This document shows, in pieces, positions 2,736 through 13,890 of a stretch of 33,602 bases of DNA. The stretch lies in contig JAHRWB010000139.1 of NCBI GenBank assembly GCA_019090385.1, positions 1 through 33,602 of the forward strand. The letters are read 5' to 3'. This DNA is from Pseudomonadales bacterium. GTDB taxonomy: Bacteria > Pseudomonadota > Gammaproteobacteria > Pseudomonadales > Azotimanducaceae. A program made the translations under genes and the position numbers. Below the pieces are notes generated by a model that was not told the DNA's origin, ran no database searches, and worked only from the letters and a program-made list of their open reading frames with translations. The first letter of the stretch is position 1. Every line of letters begins with the position of its first letter.

Positions 2736-4580
2736 TTAGTCCAGTGCAAAGGGGTTGTCTATAGCAAAGCTGACGGTTTGTTCAAAACCCGGAATGCGTA
2801 GCTCTTCTGAAGACATTTCTAAATCTTCTCCTTCTAGTACGCCATCACCAAATTTGTATACCGGCTGTGTTTTACCGTTTATTGTATCTACATCGTATTG
2901 ATGACTGGCAGCCGCAACGGCCTCATTGTTTTTAAGGTAGTGCGTCCAGGCTTTTTGGCCATGTTTTTGTTTGAGTAATTCCGAGGTGAAGTTGGGCGAC
3001 AGGAGTACACCTGTTGCATTGTTTCCACCAAAGCCCTTGGAGTTAATCAGGGTAGCATCCAGTGTTGCAAGATCCAGTTCCAGGTGCGCTTTGGAGAAAT
3101 TCAGATTTTTCTGGTAAACATCGGATGCAATTTCATCCATGGTGGAGATGCCTGGCAACCATCCATGCGCCCAAGTTCCTAGTGCGCTGACTAACTGGTC
3201 GCCCGAGGCGGGTGCCATGGGGTGACCAAGATAAGCTTTAATAGCTGCCACAGGCCAGTTGCTAATACCAAAGGCACCGGCCAGTTCATCCATAATCTGG
3301 GATTCTGTGACTCTGTTTTGTGGAGTGCCAGTACCGTGGGCATGTATACAGGTATGATTGTTTAATGCTTTGTCGCCAAGGATGCTTCTGGTCAGGCCAA
3401 GTGCTTTCCCCATAGTAATATAGTTACCAATGCCAGGGCCGGGGATGGATTTTTTAAAGCCGTCGGCGTTAATGTATACGCCTGGGACTGCACAATGAAT
3501 GTTGGCACCCATTTCCAAGGCTAATTCATCATCCATGAGTATTGTATATATAGATGCTTCTGCAAGAGTAAATCCGCAATTTTCCGCAAATGGGCGGGAA
3601 GCGCGTCGGTAATCGGGATTACCCTGAATACCATCCAATGCACACAGCTCATCGTCTTCCGCCAGGGCTCGCATGGTAGAAAACCCATCGATGATTTCAG
3701 GCAGTATACCGGCTTCTGAGTTACCGACGATGACAACCCGCCGTTTGCCTTGTTTTATATCCTCAATGCCAGCATTGAGATTATATAAATAGGTGGCACA
3801 TGCACCAATAACGGCTCCCGTAGAACCGACATTACCCAGAACATAGGCATTAACGAAATCGCCTGGCATTTCAACCAGTCCCAGTGCTATGTTTTTAGAA
3901 CTGACCCGCTTGCCGATGGACGCCGCTTTGAGTAGGCCGCCATTTCCATGATAGTCCATTTGTCCCATCGCACTGGCAGCATATACAGCGATTTCATCGG
4001 GCTTAACGGCATCCTTTATTGTCTGCCAATCTATCCCGATAGAGCCAACTGCATCGGAAGCACCATAAACGGCCAGCTGCAATCCTCGGGGATGACTGCG
4101 GGACGGATACAATTTCCCTGGTTCAAAGCCGCTTGGTAACTGTCCTGCACAGGATACTTTAGATTTTTTTGTGTCGGGAAAAAGTGCCTCGACATTGCCT
4201 TTAACCTGGATATGGTAGGTGCCATCCTGCTCTTTTACCTGCCAATTATCGGGAATGCTACGAGGCAGGTGTTTTTTTGACAGTTGAAAACTTACTGTGC
4301 CGCTATCATGGGAGAGCTTAACCATCTTTTGAAGCTCAACATTATCTGTGTCAAAGGACTCAATTTTTCGTATTAGGGTGTGTTCATCAATATATTTTCG
4401 AATATCCGCATCACTGGATGACTCCTCAATATTCATCAGCTGAGCCAGACTGGCATAGGTTGAGTCCTTGTCAGCCATACTTAGCTTATCGACGATCAAG
4501 CGTCTGAAGGCGTGATGGTGGGATACACGCCCGGCGGGATTTACCCCGCCAAATCCAACAACTACCGGTAACCGAGTCAT
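2736..4580 (-). CDS. fabY: Beta-ketoacyl synthase, FabY-like
   Basis: This 614-residue ketoacyl synthase is much longer than FabB or FabF (about 410) and resembles the FabY class described in Pseudomonas. FabY condenses acetyl-CoA with malonyl-ACP and so can replace FabH in starting fatty-acid synthesis. The catalytic triad is visible: Cys261 in GACATYLYN, His415 in HAHGTGT and His453 in KAYLGHPMA. The N-terminal 200 residues and a C-terminal tail of about 80 residues are extensions outside the core fold. Its ATG follows the thiolase stop with no gap (TAGATG), which predicts translational coupling. Assignment to FabY rests on length, motif style and lineage. Another long KAS paralogue remains possible. 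Confidence 0.85.
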   Translation of the reverse strand: MTRLPVVVGFGGVNPAGRVSHHHAFRRLIVDKLSMADKDSTYASLAQLMNIEESSSDADIRKYIDEHTLIRKIESFDTDNVELQKMVKLSHDSGTVSFQLSKKHLPRSIPDNWQVKEQDGTYHIQVKGNVEALFPDTKKSKVSCAGQLPSGFEPGKLYPSRSHPRGLQLAVYGASDAVGSIGIDWQTIKDAVKPDEIAVYAASAMGQMDYHGNGGLLKAASIGKRVSSKNIALGLVEMPGDFVNAYVLGNVGSTGAVIGACATYLYNLNAGIEDIKQGKRRVVIVGNSEAGILPEIIDGFSTMRALAEDDELCALDGIQGNPDYRRASRPFAENCGFTLAEASIYTILMDDELALEMGANIHCAVPGVYINADGFKKSIPGPGIGNYITMGKALGLTRSILGDKALNNHTCIHAHGTGTPQNRVTESQIMDELAGAFGISNWPVAAIKAYLGHPMAPASGDQLVSALGTWAHGWLPGISTMDEIASDVYQKNLNFSKAHLELDLATLDATLINSKGFGGNNATGVLLSPNFTSELLKQKHGQKAWTHYLKNNEAVAAASHQYDVDTINGKTQPVYKFGDGVLEGEDLEMSSEELRIPGFEQTVSFAIDNPFALD

Positions 4581-5765
4581 CTACACTCGCTCGATAGCTA
4601 TTGCCGTCGCTTCACCGCCGCCAATGCAAAGTGCAGCGATGCCACGTTGTTTATCGAGGCGTTGCATGGCATGGGCCAATGTTACAATCAGGCGACTGCC
4701 GGTTGATCCAATGGGATGGCCCTGGGCACAGGCGCCACCATAGATGTTGAGTTTTGCGGGATCTATTTGTAAATCACGCAGAGCGATCATCGTGACCATT
4801 GCAAAGGCTTCATTAATCTCAAATAGATCTACGGAGTCTTTACTCCAGCCGGTTTTTTCCAGTAACTTTTCAATGGCCATTACCGGCGCAGTGGTGAATT
4901 TTGAAGGGTGATGGGCGTGGCTGGTATGCGCAACGATACGCGCGAGCGGTTTTAGTCCCTTTTCCTGAACGAGGGCCTCATCCGCCAGAAGCAAGGCGGA
5001 AGCGCCATCGGAAATTGAGCTGGAGTTTGCTGCGGTGATAGTGCCATCATCCTTAAATGCCGGTCGGAGCTTGGGGATTTTTTCCAGCTTTGCGCGTTTA
5101 GGCTGTTCATCGGCTGTGATTTGGACTTCGGTTTTATTTGCGCCCATTACGGTCAAAGGAACGATTTCAGTGTCCAACCATCCTGATTCAGTGGCTTTAC
5201 GCGCTCGTTTCACAGATTCAACAGCATACGCGTCCATTTCCGCCCGAGTGAATTGGTATTCGTCTGCTGTAGTCTGGGCGAATGTGCCCATGGCCGCGCC
5301 AGTGTCTGCATCTTCAAGTCCATCAAAAAACATTGCGTCCTTTAAATCAGTATGACCAATGCGTGCGCCTTGGCGAGCGTTGGCCATCAGGTAGGGTGCA
5401 TTGGTCATACTTTCCATGCCACCAGCGATCATGCAAGGATGGTTGCCTGTGCGAATAAGATCATATGCCAGCATTGTGGCCTTCATACCAGAGCCACATA
5501 CTTTGTTGATAGTGGTTGCAGGGCACGAGTCGGGTAGGCCTGCCTGCCGCATAGCCTGGCGAGCAGGGGCTTGTTTTAATCCGGCGCTGATAACATTACC
5601 AATGATCACTTCTCCTACTTCATCTTCCGCTATGTCGGAGCGCTCAAGTGTGGCACGAATGGCCGCTGCACCCAGTTGGGGTGCGGTGAGATCTTTAAGC
5701 TCACCCTGAAATCCGCCTACCGGGGTGCGGGCTGCACTGATAATGTAAACACTGGGCTCAGACAT
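4581..5765 (-). CDS. Acetyl-CoA acetyltransferase (thiolase)
   Basis: This is a biosynthetic-type thiolase of 394 residues. It would reversibly condense two acetyl-CoA to acetoacetyl-CoA, or cleave 3-ketoacyl-CoA. The active-site residues Cys90 (NKVCGSG), His350 (GHPIGSTG) and Cys380 (CIGGGEA) match the Cys-His-Cys pattern of PhaA/AtoB enzymes almost residue for residue. The frame extends 29 codons further upstream. I chose the ATG at 5765 because MSEPSVYII begins exactly where the family does and AGGT lies about nine bases before it. It is the first gene of a two-gene unit with fabY. A role in polyhydroxyalkanoate or beta-oxidation metabolism cannot be separated from sequence alone. Confidence 0.92.
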   Translation of the reverse strand: MSEPSVYIISAARTPVGGFQGELKDLTAPQLGAAAIRATLERSDIAEDEVGEVIIGNVISAGLKQAPARQAMRQAGLPDSCPATTINKVCGSGMKATMLAYDLIRTGNHPCMIAGGMESMTNAPYLMANARQGARIGHTDLKDAMFFDGLEDADTGAAMGTFAQTTADEYQFTRAEMDAYAVESVKRARKATESGWLDTEIVPLTVMGANKTEVQITADEQPKRAKLEKIPKLRPAFKDDGTITAANSSSISDGASALLLADEALVQEKGLKPLARIVAHTSHAHHPSKFTTAPVMAIEKLLEKTGWSKDSVDLFEINEAFAMVTMIALRDLQIDPAKLNIYGGACAQGHPIGSTGSRLIVTLAHAMQRLDKQRGIAALCIGGGEATAIAIERV

Positions 5766-5890
5766 GTGAATCGACCTAATAATTAGAGAAGAGCAGATTC
5801 TACCCCAGCGTGCTGGAATCGCGCTATGCATTAGGTAAGATTGAGCCCTCAAGATACAAAAAAAGTGATTCCTTTCGATTTAGAGGGGGA

Positions 5891-7180: not shown

Positions 7181-10100
7181 ATGGAGGTGGTGTTGAGTTC
7201 AGCAAACACACAGGATTGGGTTAAGTATTCCATGGAAAATCATGAGCTTGAAGGGGATCAACTATTTCTCATTGCAGAGGGCTTAGCAAAGGACTTCTCC
7301 CTTTTTCCCCCGGCCAAGGAACACGCCGACGTCAGCATGCAGGGATTGCTGAGTAAGGCGCAAATTTCAAGGCAGTATAAAAAACAAAGTAATCTGGATA
7401 TTGATTCATATATCGAGCAGGTAATAGCCCCTGCAGAAAACCCTGGTCGTGTTTCAGCACCTGAGATTATTGCTCAATTGGGCGGGCGAGTGACCAATGA
7501 GCGAAGCGATGGCTCATTTTATTCTGCAATCGTAGATATGGATTTTGGTGGGAGTCAGCGTCTAGTCGGTTTTATAGCCCAAGATCGCTCGGTTCGAAAT
7601 GGTGTGTGGGGGCCAGAGCATCACATGGCTGCCGCAAATATTATTGAAGAGTATTCCAAGCGGTCGATACCTATTGTCAGCATGATGGATACACCCGGGG
7701 CAGATCCGGGAGAACAAGCCAACATCAATAACCAAGCGCACAGTATATCTCGTTTGATTACAGAAATGTGTAATGTAGATGTGCCCAATATCGGTATTGT
7801 ATTTGGCTTGGGCTATTCAGGTGGAGCGATTCCTCTCGCAGCGAGTAACCTGATTTTTTCTGTCCGCGATGGTGTATTTAGTACCATCCAACCGAAAGGG
7901 CTTGCGAGTATTGCCAGACGCTTGAACTTGTCCTGGCAGGAATGCGCAAAATATGTAGGTGTTTCGCCATTCGAGTTGTATAGGCAAGGTAACATCGATG
8001 GCGTGATAGATTACAAGCCGGGAGAAACCGGGGAGTCCCTGAATAATTTGCGCCTTGCAATAGTCACTGGCATTTTGTCTATTGAATCCCGAACCATGAA
8101 GTTTGTGGCTGAAAATCCCTATATTCTTGCGCACTACAAGCGCAGTTTAAATAGATACTTAAATACTTCTGAACAGCTGCAATCCATGGAGACCAGTGCT
8201 GGGTTGAATCTGACAAAGTGCCCAACTGAATATGACAATTTATTTGGCATGGCTTTTCGATATTTAAGATATTTGGGCACACGCAAACGTATAAAAGCCA
8301 CAACCAAGCAACAATATGGCCGTTTATCAGACCAGGAGTTACCTGCGGGAGAACTGGCCAGTCGAGCCGACCTGGAGAGGCGGCAAGTTTTTCTGAGATG
8401 GCTGCAGGACCCGGAAAAGGTCATTTATAGTGAGCAGATTGCTAAAGCCTGGAAGACCTTTAATGAAAAGAAGCAGGCTGTCCATGATGAGCGCGGAAGA
8501 ATTGCACAGCTAATTTTTGGTGAACCTCGAAAAAATTACGAAGATGCTCGCCAACAGCTTTTATCTACCGTCAGCATGTATTTGTACAATCGCTGGAAAA
8601 GTCAGTCTGCTGGAAACTTGCAGGCCCTAAAGCAATACCTTAAGAATCATGAAGACGCACGCAGAATAGTTAGGGTTGCGGAACTTAAAGATCCGGTCGA
8701 GTTACTAAATGCCATTAAGGAAAATGTGAACTTGGGTAATTTCTTTACCGAGCAGTTCACCCACGAGGGGCGAAAATTACTGCTGGCTAAAAGTTATCGG
8801 GGCATGTCTGAAAACTATCTGCGTACCCAGCTGGCGACAGAAATCAATTTGTTGCTTACCAGTGTGCCCTTTAGCGAAAAATCTGCAACGGTAGAGTTGA
8901 GCCGAGAGGCCAGCAAGTTTAAATCTGAGAATGCTTCAAGTCTGAAGTTGAATCGACAGATATTCGATGATGAATTTTCTTCACATATTCATCGTGCCAA
9001 TATGAAAGGTGCGCCTCTTGCACTGAGTGAAATGACCGTTCTGGATGTGCTGACCCAGGAGGAACTTCGTCAGGAATTTATTTCTGAATGTGAAAACCTT
9101 TTGCTGTTCGATTCTGTGTACGATCAGTTAATTAATAATTTGGATTCCGTTGCTGAGGAAGCAAACTCCACACGCAATCTTGCACAATCGTCATTGGAAG
9201 AATTATTGGATACTACGCTTTCACTGGCTTCTCGCGGTATTACAGTGGGTGATCTCGGACTCGATGCGCACTCTCCGGAAGAAATTGCTGAGCGTTTGAG
9301 AGAACAATTTTTTTCCTGGTACTTGCGAATTGCGGGTGAGAGCCGAAGCGGAGAGTTTTTTCGTGCGGTGGAAGAATGGAAGAAAGGCAGTTTTGCAGCG
9401 GTGTCTGATACCTTGTTGGTGGTGGTCACCTTTATATTTGAAAATCTACTGGTATCTTTTTTGCGGGCCAAGCGAGAAGGTAAACGCTATGACGGAAGTA
9501 TCTCTCCACGAAATATTGGGCGAAGAAAGGATTTTTGGAATCGTCTGGGAATAGCTTATCATGATTTGTTACTGCAAAACTTGCTGAAAAAATATAGTGC
9601 CCGACCTGATCAGGGGCATCATGTATTTGTTGAAGAATATTTTACTAACTTCGAAGAACTCAACGAAGACCTTTTGAGTTCTGATCCCTGTGAGTTTCCA
9701 GGTTTTCGCGTTTCAATAGAAAAAGCATTGAAAAATGGCATTCCACCTTGTGGAATTGTTACCGGTCTGGCTGATTTTGATGACGGCAAGCAATGCATGC
9801 GGGTAGGTACTGCAATATCTAATGTTGCTTTTCAGGCAGGTTCTTTTGATATGGCCAGTGCCGAGAAATTTTGTAAATTACTGGTGACCTGTGCGGAACG
9901 GCATCTACCGGTGATCTGCTTTGTTTCATCAGGAGGTATGCAAACCAAAGAAGGCGCGGGCGCATTGTTTTCTATGGCTGCGGTGAATGATCGCATTACG
10001 CGTTTTGTCCGAGACAATGATTTACCAGTAATAATTTTTGGCTATGGCAATTGTACAGGCGGAGCGCAAGCTAGCTTTGTGACTCACCCACTGGTGCAAA

Positions 10101-12151
10101 CTTACTATTTTTCTGGCACATTTATGCCTTTTGCCGGGCAAATAGTGGTTCAGGAAAACTTGCCTTATACCTCAACCTTGTCTAACTATCTTTCTACTCA
10201 GACAGGCTCAATGCAGGGCTTGGTAAAACACCCCTTTTATGAAGGGCTGGATGAAGAGCTGCAAAAAATAGATGGCTCTATCCCAGTGCCGACTGAAACT
10301 GTTAGAGATGTAGTTCAGCGGGTTATGAGTGGCTCTTTGCTTCAGGCCAGGCCGGTTACTATTGTGCGCGGTATTAGTCCTAAAAGCATGGAACTGGCTG
10401 GCTCGGTTAAGCGAGTTCTGATTCACGCACGGGGTTGTACCGCAGTGAAGTTGATTAGAATTGCTCAGCAGAATGATATCGATGTGGTGCTGGTACAGTC
10501 CGATCCAGACATGGATTCTGTTGCTGTAGACATGCTGGGAGAATCGGACAAAGTGGTGTGCATAGGTGGTAACACTGCTGATGAAAGTTATCTGAATGCG
10601 CAAAGTGTTTTGAGTGTTGCGGAGCATGAAAAAGTAGATTCACTGCACCCCGGCATAGGTTTTTTGTCAGAGAACAGTCAGTTTGCAGAACTGTGCAGAT
10701 TACATGGTATAAATTTTATAGGTCCACCGGTTGCCAGCATGAACACGATGGGCAACAAGTCTAATGCTATTAATACATCGCTTAGGTTGGATGTGCCCGT
10801 GGTACCAGGCAGTCATGGAATTTTAACTAGCGCTGAACGTGCTGCGGATGTTGCGGAGAGTATTGGCTATCCGGTGTTGATTAAGGCAGTGCATGGGGGA
10901 GGGGGCAAGGGTATTCAGGTTGTTGAGAAATCCGATAATTTTCATGAACTGTTTCATCAAGTGACTGCGGAAGCTAAAGCAGCATTTGGTAATGGCGATG
11001 TTTATCTGGAAAAGTATGTTACTTCTTTGCGCCACATTGAAGTGCAGTTGCTACGCGACAAGCATGGAAACACCCATGTGCTTGGGTTACGAGATTGTAG
11101 TGTACAGCGAGATAAACAGAAAGTTATTGAGGAATCTGAATCTACGATGCTCACGCAAGAACTGCGGGAGAGTGTTCTTACATACACGAAAAACCTTGCA
11201 GATGAAGTGAGTTATGAAGGTGCGGGTACGGTTGAATTTATTTATGATCTGGCCAATAAGGCTGTGTATTTCATGGAGATGAATACGCGCCTTCAGGTTG
11301 AGCACCCGGTGACTGAGCACGTCTCCGGGATAGATATTGTAAAGCAACAGTTCAGAATTGCATCGAATGAAAATATTGCCGATTTGGAAGTTCAGTCTAA
11401 CGGTTATTCTATGGAAGTCCGAATAACTGCCGAGCGACTGGCATTTGATTCAAATGGGGTTTTAAAATTTCATCCTGATCCGGGGGAAATTCAGGAATAT
11501 TCGTTGCCGGAAGAGGATGGGGTAGAGGTTATAAGTACGGTGGCTGCTGGAAAATTTGTATCGCCGTTTTACGATAGTTTGATCGCGCAGGTGATAGTGC
11601 ATAGCACTGATCGAAGTAGCACCATTGAAAAAATGTTGGAGTACCTGGGTCGCGCCAGAATAACAGGTATTTCTACGAATATTCCCTTGCTGCAGCGTGT
11701 GTTGAAAGATGATGTGTTTCGAAAGGGCATTTACGATACGGATTATTTGCCGGGTCTGCTTCAGCGCACGGATGCTGAAGGCTTAATAGAAGAGATAAAA
11801 CAAGCATCTGGCGTTGAATCGTCGGGCATTGACCTGGAATCCATTAAAATCGAAGACAGTGATGAACTAAAGGTGCTGTGTCCATCCACAGGAATATTCT
11901 ACAGTACGCCCACGCCAACTGAGCCGGACTTCGTTTCCGTTGGCGACAAAGTAGATATTGCCAGTACATTGTGTCAGCTCGAAGCATTTAAGATATTTTC
12001 ACCGCTTAGCCTAAAAAATTATAATGCCGGAGAAGACGAGCTGTACAGCTCTAGCCAGAAGTATGAAATTATGCGTATCAATATGGCATCCGGACAACAG
12101 GTGAATGCGGGAGATTTATTATTTGTGGTTAGGCCTGTGGCTGCTCGATAA
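7181..12151 (+). CDS. Single-chain biotin-dependent acyl-CoA carboxylase (CT-alpha / CT-beta / BC / BCCP fusion)
   Basis: This 1,656-residue protein predicts all activities of acetyl-CoA carboxylase in one chain. Residues about 80-320 are AccA-like (DTPGADPGEQ at 170-179, GYSGGA around 211-216). About 320-840 is a mostly helical spacer that I do not recognise. About 845-1060 is AccD-like (SSGGMQTKEGAG near 916-927, GNCTGGAQASF near 956-966), without the usual zinc-ribbon cysteines. About 1075-1520 is biotin carboxylase (HPGIGFLSEN from 1156; Lys1235; GGGGKG at 1239-1244; MNTRLQVEHPV from 1367). The C-terminus is AccB-like and includes the 'thumb' (TPTPTEPDF) and Lys1604 in EAFKI. ATP-site and catalytic residues are largely intact, so it is probably active. 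The substrate, acetyl-CoA or another acyl-CoA, is unknown. The ATG at 7181 has no ribosome site before it. GGAGG at 7183-7187 lies inside the frame, so a TTG at 7193 may be the true start. Confidence 0.9.
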   Translation: MEVVLSSANTQDWVKYSMENHELEGDQLFLIAEGLAKDFSLFPPAKEHADVSMQGLLSKAQISRQYKKQSNLDIDSYIEQVIAPAENPGRVSAPEIIAQLGGRVTNERSDGSFYSAIVDMDFGGSQRLVGFIAQDRSVRNGVWGPEHHMAAANIIEEYSKRSIPIVSMMDTPGADPGEQANINNQAHSISRLITEMCNVDVPNIGIVFGLGYSGGAIPLAASNLIFSVRDGVFSTIQPKGLASIARRLNLSWQECAKYVGVSPFELYRQGNIDGVIDYKPGETGESLNNLRLAIVTGILSIESRTMKFVAENPYILAHYKRSLNRYLNTSEQLQSMETSAGLNLTKCPTEYDNLFGMAFRYLRYLGTRKRIKATTKQQYGRLSDQELPAGELASRADLERRQVFLRWLQDPEKVIYSEQIAKAWKTFNEKKQAVHDERGRIAQLIFGEPRKNYEDARQQLLSTVSMYLYNRWKSQSAGNLQALKQYLKNHEDARRIVRVAELKDPVELLNAIKENVNLGNFFTEQFTHEGRKLLLAKSYRGMSENYLRTQLATEINLLLTSVPFSEKSATVELSREASKFKSENASSLKLNRQIFDDEFSSHIHRANMKGAPLALSEMTVLDVLTQEELRQEFISECENLLLFDSVYDQLINNLDSVAEEANSTRNLAQSSLEELLDTTLSLASRGITVGDLGLDAHSPEEIAERLREQFFSWYLRIAGESRSGEFFRAVEEWKKGSFAAVSDTLLVVVTFIFENLLVSFLRAKREGKRYDGSISPRNIGRRKDFWNRLGIAYHDLLLQNLLKKYSARPDQGHHVFVEEYFTNFEELNEDLLSSDPCEFPGFRVSIEKALKNGIPPCGIVTGLADFDDGKQCMRVGTAISNVAFQAGSFDMASAEKFCKLLVTCAERHLPVICFVSSGGMQTKEGAGALFSMAAVNDRITRFVRDNDLPVIIFGYGNCTGGAQASFVTHPLVQTYYFSGTFMPFAGQIVVQENLPYTSTLSNYLSTQTGSMQGLVKHPFYEGLDEELQKIDGSIPVPTETVRDVVQRVMSGSLLQARPVTIVRGISPKSMELAGSVKRVLIHARGCTAVKLIRIAQQNDIDVVLVQSDPDMDSVAVDMLGESDKVVCIGGNTADESYLNAQSVLSVAEHEKVDSLHPGIGFLSENSQFAELCRLHGINFIGPPVASMNTMGNKSNAINTSLRLDVPVVPGSHGILTSAERAADVAESIGYPVLIKAVHGGGGKGIQVVEKSDNFHELFHQVTAEAKAAFGNGDVYLEKYVTSLRHIEVQLLRDKHGNTHVLGLRDCSVQRDKQKVIEESESTMLTQELRESVLTYTKNLADEVSYEGAGTVEFIYDLANKAVYFMEMNTRLQVEHPVTEHVSGIDIVKQQFRIASNENIADLEVQSNGYSMEVRITAERLAFDSNGVLKFHPDPGEIQEYSLPEEDGVEVISTVAAGKFVSPFYDSLIAQVIVHSTDRSSTIEKMLEYLGRARITGISTNIPLLQRVLKDDVFRKGIYDTDYLPGLLQRTDAEGLIEEIKQASGVESSGIDLESIKIEDSDELKVLCPSTGIFYSTPTPTEPDFVSVGDKVDIASTLCQLEAFKIFSPLSLKNYNAGEDELYSSSQKYEIMRINMASGQQVNAGDLLFVVRPVAAR

Positions 12152-13035: not shown

Positions 13036-13890
13036 GTGCTGGATAATCTTCAAACATTAATTACCTTGTCTAAAGTGGGTACTATGATGGAAACCAGTAC
13101 CCAGCTAAAGGTTTCACAATCTGCAGTGAGCAAGCGCATAGCTGCACTTGAGAATTTTTATGATCGCCAGCTGGTAGAGCGTCAGGGTAGGCGCGTAGTC
13201 CTTACCTCCCACGGAACGCGTTTGGTAGAAAAAGTCACTCCACTAATTTCGGAGTTGCGTAGTGTTTTTCTAGAAGACAGAGCCCTGAGCAGGGGCAAGA
13301 TCGTGATGGGTGTCTCAGAGGCTATTCTTGCCAGTTGGGGACCAAGTTTGATCGCTGTGGTTCAGCAGGAAATGCCAGAAGTCGAATTTATCTGTCATGC
13401 TCAGCGATCCCCTATAGTTCTGGACAGGATAAGGTCCGGCGAATACATGGTGGGTTTGTGTACGGGTTCATCAGATGCAGAAACAGACTTGCAGAGCGAG
13501 CTCTTGCGACTGGAGCCCATGGTTATTTTGCCTTCTTTACTTCAGACCATAGAGTATGAGGTGGGTGAGCCACTGGATGTAATTACCATTGAGTCACGGT
13601 CCGGCGCCTGGGGATCTATTGAAGAGGATATGCGCAGGTTAAATTTGCGCCGTGCCACTTCATTGGAGTCTTTTTTCTCTACCGCACAAATGGGCCTGGC
13701 GGGTTTTGGTCATGCCCTGGTACCAGAAGGGGTCGCGCGTACCCTGGGTGTAAAGTCGGAGCAAATGATTAATCTCGGGGACAGCGGTTTGAACAGACCG
13801 GTAAGGTTTGTCGCACGAAAATCCATGTTTTCTCAATCCCTGATCCAGAGTTTTTTTGAAATACTGAAAGCGCATACCCAAAAGCTATAA
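13036..13890 (+). CDS. LysR-family transcriptional regulator
   Basis: This is a 284-residue regulator. Residues 1-60 form the winged helix-turn-helix (TQLKVSQSAVSKRIAALE). About residues 85-284 form a periplasmic-binding-like effector domain (KIVMGVSEAIL at its start). LysR proteins bind DNA as tetramers and usually control a divergent neighbour, here the TauE/SafE permease gene. The GTG at 13036 is the likely start because the fold begins directly after it. The nearest AAGGA is about 15 bases upstream, inside the tandem repeat, which is a long spacing. The stop overlaps the hemH stop region by 6 bp in convergent orientation. The effector is unknown; an anion handled by the permease is a reasonable guess. 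Confidence 0.88.
   Translation: MLDNLQTLITLSKVGTMMETSTQLKVSQSAVSKRIAALENFYDRQLVERQGRRVVLTSHGTRLVEKVTPLISELRSVFLEDRALSRGKIVMGVSEAILASWGPSLIAVVQQEMPEVEFICHAQRSPIVLDRIRSGEYMVGLCTGSSDAETDLQSELLRLEPMVILPSLLQTIEYEVGEPLDVITIESRSGAWGSIEEDMRRLNLRRATSLESFFSTAQMGLAGFGHALVPEGVARTLGVKSEQMINLGDSGLNRPVRFVARKSMFSQSLIQSFFEILKAHTQKL

Follow-up and report, generated by a model that had tools for sequence, protein, structure and literature searches.

A single open reading frame of the window, by which we mean the whole stretch of 33,602 nucleotides that was analysed, very probably encodes an acetyl-CoA carboxylase of the AccS/AccADCB type that does the work of the missing AccA and AccD proteins. This reading is based on the domain order, the homology, the fold match, the failure of accA and accD to reach the family cut-offs and the conservation of the key lysine and of the biotin carboxylase (BC) motif. 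Judged by its sequence, the product appears as a new member, of a long-spacer subtype, of an enzyme kind known from Shewanella oneidensis. AccS-type enzymes are thereby found in 34 of the 37 genomes sampled from a further family, in which the usual AccA and AccD are missing.

Domain layout and the Shewanella homologue

The frame starts with ATG and runs over 1,656 residues with zero internal stops. Family profile models confirmed the predicted succession of AccA-, AccD-, AccC- and AccB-like parts within it, with the carboxyltransferase (CT) halves first:

7181..12151, + strand: accS/accADCB homologue, putative single-chain acetyl-CoA carboxylase of 1,656 aa, order CTalpha - helical spacer - CTbeta - BC - BCCP
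7586..8023, + strand: AccA-like (CTalpha) core, residues 136-281, NF041504 (E 9.4e-30) and PF03255, including G-Y-S-G-G-A in the 25-row alignment
8126..9694, + strand: helical spacer, residues 316-838, whose model shares its fold with the corresponding region of the S. oneidensis enzyme (9kkm_A)
8651..9022, + strand: subtype-specific spacer insert, residues about 491-614, without counterpart in 9kkm and 12-14 residues long in G042 and G052
9647..10192, + strand: AccD-like (CTbeta) core, residues 823-1004, TIGR00515 (E 5.6e-13)
10406..11761, + strand: biotin carboxylase (AccC-like) domain, residues 1076-1527, NF006367 (E 5e-152), with EMNTRLQVEHP
11846..12130, + strand: BCCP (AccB-like) domain, residues 1556-1650, TIGR00531 (E 9.4e-10), biotin-attachment site E-A-F-K1604-I
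13036..13890, + strand: LysR-type regulator, conserved near the gene and not AccR-like, with a possible regulatory link

The AccA and AccD matches of the fusion are clear, though far below the equivalog cut-offs of the heteromeric proteins (TIGR00513, 70.1 against 319.3 bits; TIGR00515, 48.9 against 317.45 bits). The TIGR00515 profile (285 positions) is matched only from position 71 onwards, which leaves out the N-terminal region of AccD, a zinc ribbon in E. coli. K1604, presumably the biotin lysine, and E1374, N1368 and R1370, which we take to be the catalytic motif of BC, are present in the alignments; a lysine occupies the biotin site in all 24 rows that reach it among the 25 aligned. The residue preceding this lysine is M in 21 of the 24 rows and F in three, and the EAFKI found here was counted against the AccS-type reading. 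In the proposed mechanism, the C-terminal carrier domain would bear biotin on K1604, the BC domain would carboxylate this biotin using ATP and bicarbonate, and the fusion would do the work of the absent AccA and AccD in the source organism.

The fusion and the heteromeric acetyl-CoA carboxylase (ACC) of E. coli have the four functional parts in common; in E. coli these are four proteins, among which we know of no spacer. In eukaryotic and actinobacterial multidomain ACC, as in the palmitoyl-preferring single-chain acyl-CoA carboxylase, BC comes first. The window's protein resembles these enzymes in holding all activities on a single chain, whereas its BC and BCCP come last and its CT halves are arranged alpha-beta; the predicted opposition to the eukaryotic order is thus borne out, and the profile models did not find the eukaryotic-type layout (BC N-terminal, CT last) in 7181-12151. 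According to excerpts of one article, the actinobacterial ACC (SACE_4237) is homologous to eukaryotic ACC from end to end, and one single-chain multidomain acyl-CoA carboxylase has a Km for palmitoyl-CoA far below that for acetyl-CoA (PMC6491548). The string 'accADCB' in work on Berkiella was considered as a further fusion; in PMC9803151 it is used as a gene list, so that no fusion is demonstrated there.

An end-to-end match with the order CTalpha-CTbeta-BC-BCCP was found, and the original prediction that no characterised protein has this layout does not hold: the S. oneidensis enzyme with the same order has been both published and solved. Among solved structures the top match is to PDB 9kkm/9w4a, entered as 'Acetyl-CoA carboxylase multifunctional enzyme AccADCB' (1,517 aa; 1,734.5 bits), the 9kkm alignment covering residues 25-490 and 615-1653 of the window's protein. 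According to its title, entry 9kkm (released 2025-11-19) is the E1238A mutant of the S. oneidensis protein as a holoenzyme dimer; in the alignment, the mutated position corresponds to E1374 of the window's protein. A predicted structure of residues 22-1062 (mean pLDDT 77.5, pTM 0.67) superimposes on 9kkm across 1,034 columns, with a TM-score of 0.80 when normalised by query length; the fold matches ranking next are AccA and AccD structures.

The two proteins are alike in domain order, end-to-end homology and spacer fold. They differ in that the window's protein is 139 residues longer, mainly through the insert at 491-614, has EAFKI where 9kkm has EAMKM at the biotin site and is encoded without an adjoining divergent LysR gene. 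As excerpted, the literature on S. oneidensis states that AccS (SO_0840, 1,517 aa) replaces AccABCD and tabulates a separate AccB (SO_0511; PMC4793157), and a separate accB is likewise retained in the source genome. Excerpts of a second article describe a biotinylated band at roughly 170 kDa as AccS, mention two bands, AccS and LiuD, on a streptavidin blot in Shewanella and include its authors' remark that the domain order is unlike that of eukaryotic ACC (PMC11602165). In the same excerpts AccR, a regulator of the LysR type, is an activator of accS, and the growth defect of an accR deletion is cured either by accS or by E. coli accA, accD and accBC (PMC11602165).

An all-helical structural model of residues 316-838 (mean pLDDT 79.5, pTM 0.76) upholds the prediction that roughly 500 helical residues separate the CT halves. 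This model aligns with 9kkm_A over 295 of its 523 residues (VIA Z 25.2, rmsd 3.0), and the Shewanella enzyme is its single Foldseek match at E <= 0.001 (E 1.7e-15). The spacer was rejected as another known domain on the basis of this single Foldseek match and of Z values of at most 5.1 in the other VIA rows displayed, which leave other folds possible. Zero Pfam families had their best stretch in 316-838, the position of a second Carboxyl_trans stretch being undisplayed. At positions 491-614, where the Shewanella enzyme shows no match, the 25-row alignment falls into two length classes, with 107-138 residues in 23 rows, 14 in G042 and 12 in G052. Since the spacer fold matches 9kkm and two length classes exist, the spacer is taken to belong to the known enzyme architecture, with the insert marking a long subtype. 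As modelled, the spacer would be a structural part of the holoenzyme, common with the Shewanella enzyme. What appears new from the alignment, though modest, is the long subtype itself, with 107-138 spacer residues as compared to 12-14 in the short type.

Distribution of the fusion and loss of accA and accD

The search covered 58 genomes: the source genome, members of its genus and family (family f1, n = 37) and others of the same order (n = 21). The fusion is present in 34 of the 37 f1 genomes and in three of the 21 others (G042, G052 and G057), in some of them interrupted at contig ends. Genes above the family cut-off for accA were found in 0 of 37 f1 genomes and 18 of the 21 others, and for accD in 0 of 37 and 19 of 21. 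The genomes of the order without accA are G048, in which the match at a contig end scores 318.6 against 319.3 bits, G052 and G057, the latter two also being those without accD. As accA and accD exceed the cut-off in none of the 37 genomes and the fusion occurs in 34, the fusion appears to replace AccA and AccD in the window's lineage and not to stand alongside them. It is not invariably the sole ACC, since G042 and G223, a genome of the wider survey described below, hold the fusion together with accA and accD. Three f1 genomes (G003, G020 and G028; completeness 96, 91 and 85%) have neither the fusion nor accA or accD above the cut-off, so that another route or assembly gaps exist; like G042 and G223, they speak against a simple account. 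In these three, accB and accC lie side by side.

In a class-wide sample of 229 genomes the fusion was found in four, with the source genome counted. Eight further fusion-bearing genomes include five records titled 'chromosome: 1'; accA and accD were detected in G223 only, and the five chromosome records gave 0/5 for each gene. With respect to named genomes, a relative is encoded by 416 of 436 pattern-matched stretches. The best 80 of these 416 relatives are all from metagenome-assembled genomes (MAGs), mostly titled Gammaproteobacteria or Pseudomonadales, and include single HTCC2089, K189A and OM182 clade records. Plasmid records yielded partial matches in 1,248 cases and coverage of 80% of the protein in none. 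A MAG titled Klebsiella pneumoniae (L109) has this gene type at 57% identity over the CT part; the title is probably wrong.

By analogy with the Shewanella work, the fusion would most likely be the main acetyl-CoA carboxylase and malonyl-CoA source of its host, and activity, biotinylation and the dimeric form would be expected to carry over in the same manner. An improbable alternative is a carboxylase for another acyl-CoA, propionyl-CoA or longer, with malonyl-CoA supplied by a PCC/MCC-type carboxylase of the genome. The source genome indeed contains frames of 519-556 aa whose AccA/AccD-type matches are weak and which are interpreted as PCC/MCC-type carboxyltransferases, as well as another BC gene (a 581-aa frame), and the three family members with neither fusion nor accA/accD would fit such a reading; however, the CTalpha half fits Pfam ACCA (residues 141-279, E 1e-25) better than Carboxyl_trans (E 2.7e-18), AccA/AccD structures follow 9kkm among the fold matches, the close homologue has been named and investigated as an acetyl-CoA carboxylase, and in family f1 the absence of accA and accD accompanies the fusion. 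Two of the frames in question, of 547 and 519 aa and assigned to the PCC/MCC type as well, were also met by the broader Pfam ACCA model (29.4 and 24.2 bits), the cut-off of which is low at 23 bits.

Much less probable still is the accessory second ACC of the original prediction, working alongside a conventional accABCD set. Such an arrangement holds for G042 and G223, and a stand-alone accB is present in the source genome, but in this genome (99.35% complete) separate accA, accD and accC above the cut-off were not found and accB has no adjoining accC, a lone accB being all that is left of the usual set. The five chromosome records without accA and accD also speak against it, and for the source genome an accessory role was rejected, unless both genes fell into assembly gaps. 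An assembly artefact fusing separate genes, which had been named as a possible refutation, can be dismissed, as the same full-length protein is encoded at one place in 28 of the 37 family genomes, the frame is unbroken in the five records titled 'chromosome: 1' and the solved homologue has the identical domain order. One stop was flagged in six of the 28 genomes; as the open frame spans 1,619-1,635 aa in the four that were fetched, it sits at the frame edge.

The lone accB

A separate accB exceeds the cut-off in 24 of the 37 f1 genomes, and its locus was viewed in 23 of them, that is, all except G020, in which accB and accC are adjacent by coordinates. In 17 of the 23 loci accB is followed by prmA with accC absent between them (aroQ lies upstream in 15 of the 17), and six retain accB-accC-prmA. 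The source genome shows aroQ-accB-prmA with accC missing (G000:C88, L035 714-2577, outside the window), and 16 other family genomes likewise have accB without accC; in G003, which lacks the fusion, the order is aroQ-accB-accC-prmA. The biotin site E-S-M-K-M-M-N is retained in each of the 17 lone AccB proteins. The disappearance of accC from aroQ-accB-accC-prmA in 17 genomes, leaving accB on its own with its biotin site preserved, is a new though modest observation. The 34 fusion-bearing f1 genomes comprise 17 with accB only, four with accB and accC and 13 without accB above the cut-off. The stand-alone accB of the source genome was counted against the AccS-type reading.

A tree was made of 27 fusion proteins, representing 25 of the 34 fusion-bearing f1 genomes, G042 and G057; it leaves out G052, with a truncated protein, and G007, G010, G021, G023, G027, G031, G032, G035 and G036, four of which are accB-only. 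All 13 accB-only rows fall into one 17-row group (support 82/92) alongside four accB-less rows, and the four rows with accB and accC into another group of eight rows (100/100), together with four accB-less rows. By the tool's count the accB label requires four changes on the tree and forms no single clade. It may be that accC was lost once, on the branch leading to the 17-row group, though this is unproven; the tree is midpoint-rooted and G042 forms a long branch. The EAFK motif was tried as a cause of accB retention and rejected; it is not simply linked to retention, because G008 (L029) has EAFK as well and no separate accB above the cut-off.

The replacement stages, namely the fusion with accB and accC, with accB, or alone, coexist within the family, which makes the swap of an essential enzyme testable and raises the question why the lone AccB is retained. 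One speculative and rather unlikely answer is that it acts in trans with the fusion, as second biotin carrier or as regulator of biotinylation or acc expression, and that the spacer insert could dock or control it; if so, the enzyme would operate with two carriers.

Gene neighbourhood and the nearby LysR gene

Upstream, a MoCF_biosynth gene is the immediate neighbour of 7181-12151, followed by MaoC, thiolase and ketoacyl-synthase-like genes; the ketoacyl-synthase-like gene (614 aa) and the thiolase gene directly adjoin each other at 2736-5852 of the window. Downstream lie TauE, LysR and ferrochelatase genes; the frame of the carboxylase and the convergent TauE frame share 23 bases at their 3' ends (12129-12151). 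Conservation was counted among the best 80 named loci, using those with at least 3 kb upstream (n = 73) or downstream (n = 54). MoCF is found in 68, the ketoacyl-synthase-like gene in 67, thiolase in 58 and MaoC in 17 of the 73 loci, and a LysR gene on the same strand in 37 of the 54.

In Shewanella a divergent accR is conserved next to the gene, and it is found in some other genera too, though it is not a required feature; next to the window's gene it was not found, the upstream neighbour being the MoCF_biosynth gene. The LysR at 13036-13890 was considered as AccR and rejected, since it had zero blastp and phmmer matches to the LysR beside the acc gene of plasmid pOXA436, which is probably AccR, judging from its place. 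A second LysR of this sort, sharing about 30% identity with AccR and encoded close to accS in the same orientation, is mentioned in excerpts of PMC11602165. A further new, though modest, observation is that a LysR gene without likeness to AccR is conserved in the vicinity, which makes it a candidate second regulator.

The plasmid pOXA436 (L018, Enterobacter asburiae) itself carries a partial acc gene of this type which, together with the LysR gene, adjoins blaOXA-436. The same gene adjoins lysR and blaOXA-48-like genes in Shewanella according to an excerpted report, from which a Shewanella origin of the plasmid-borne acc gene is likely (PMC3480492).
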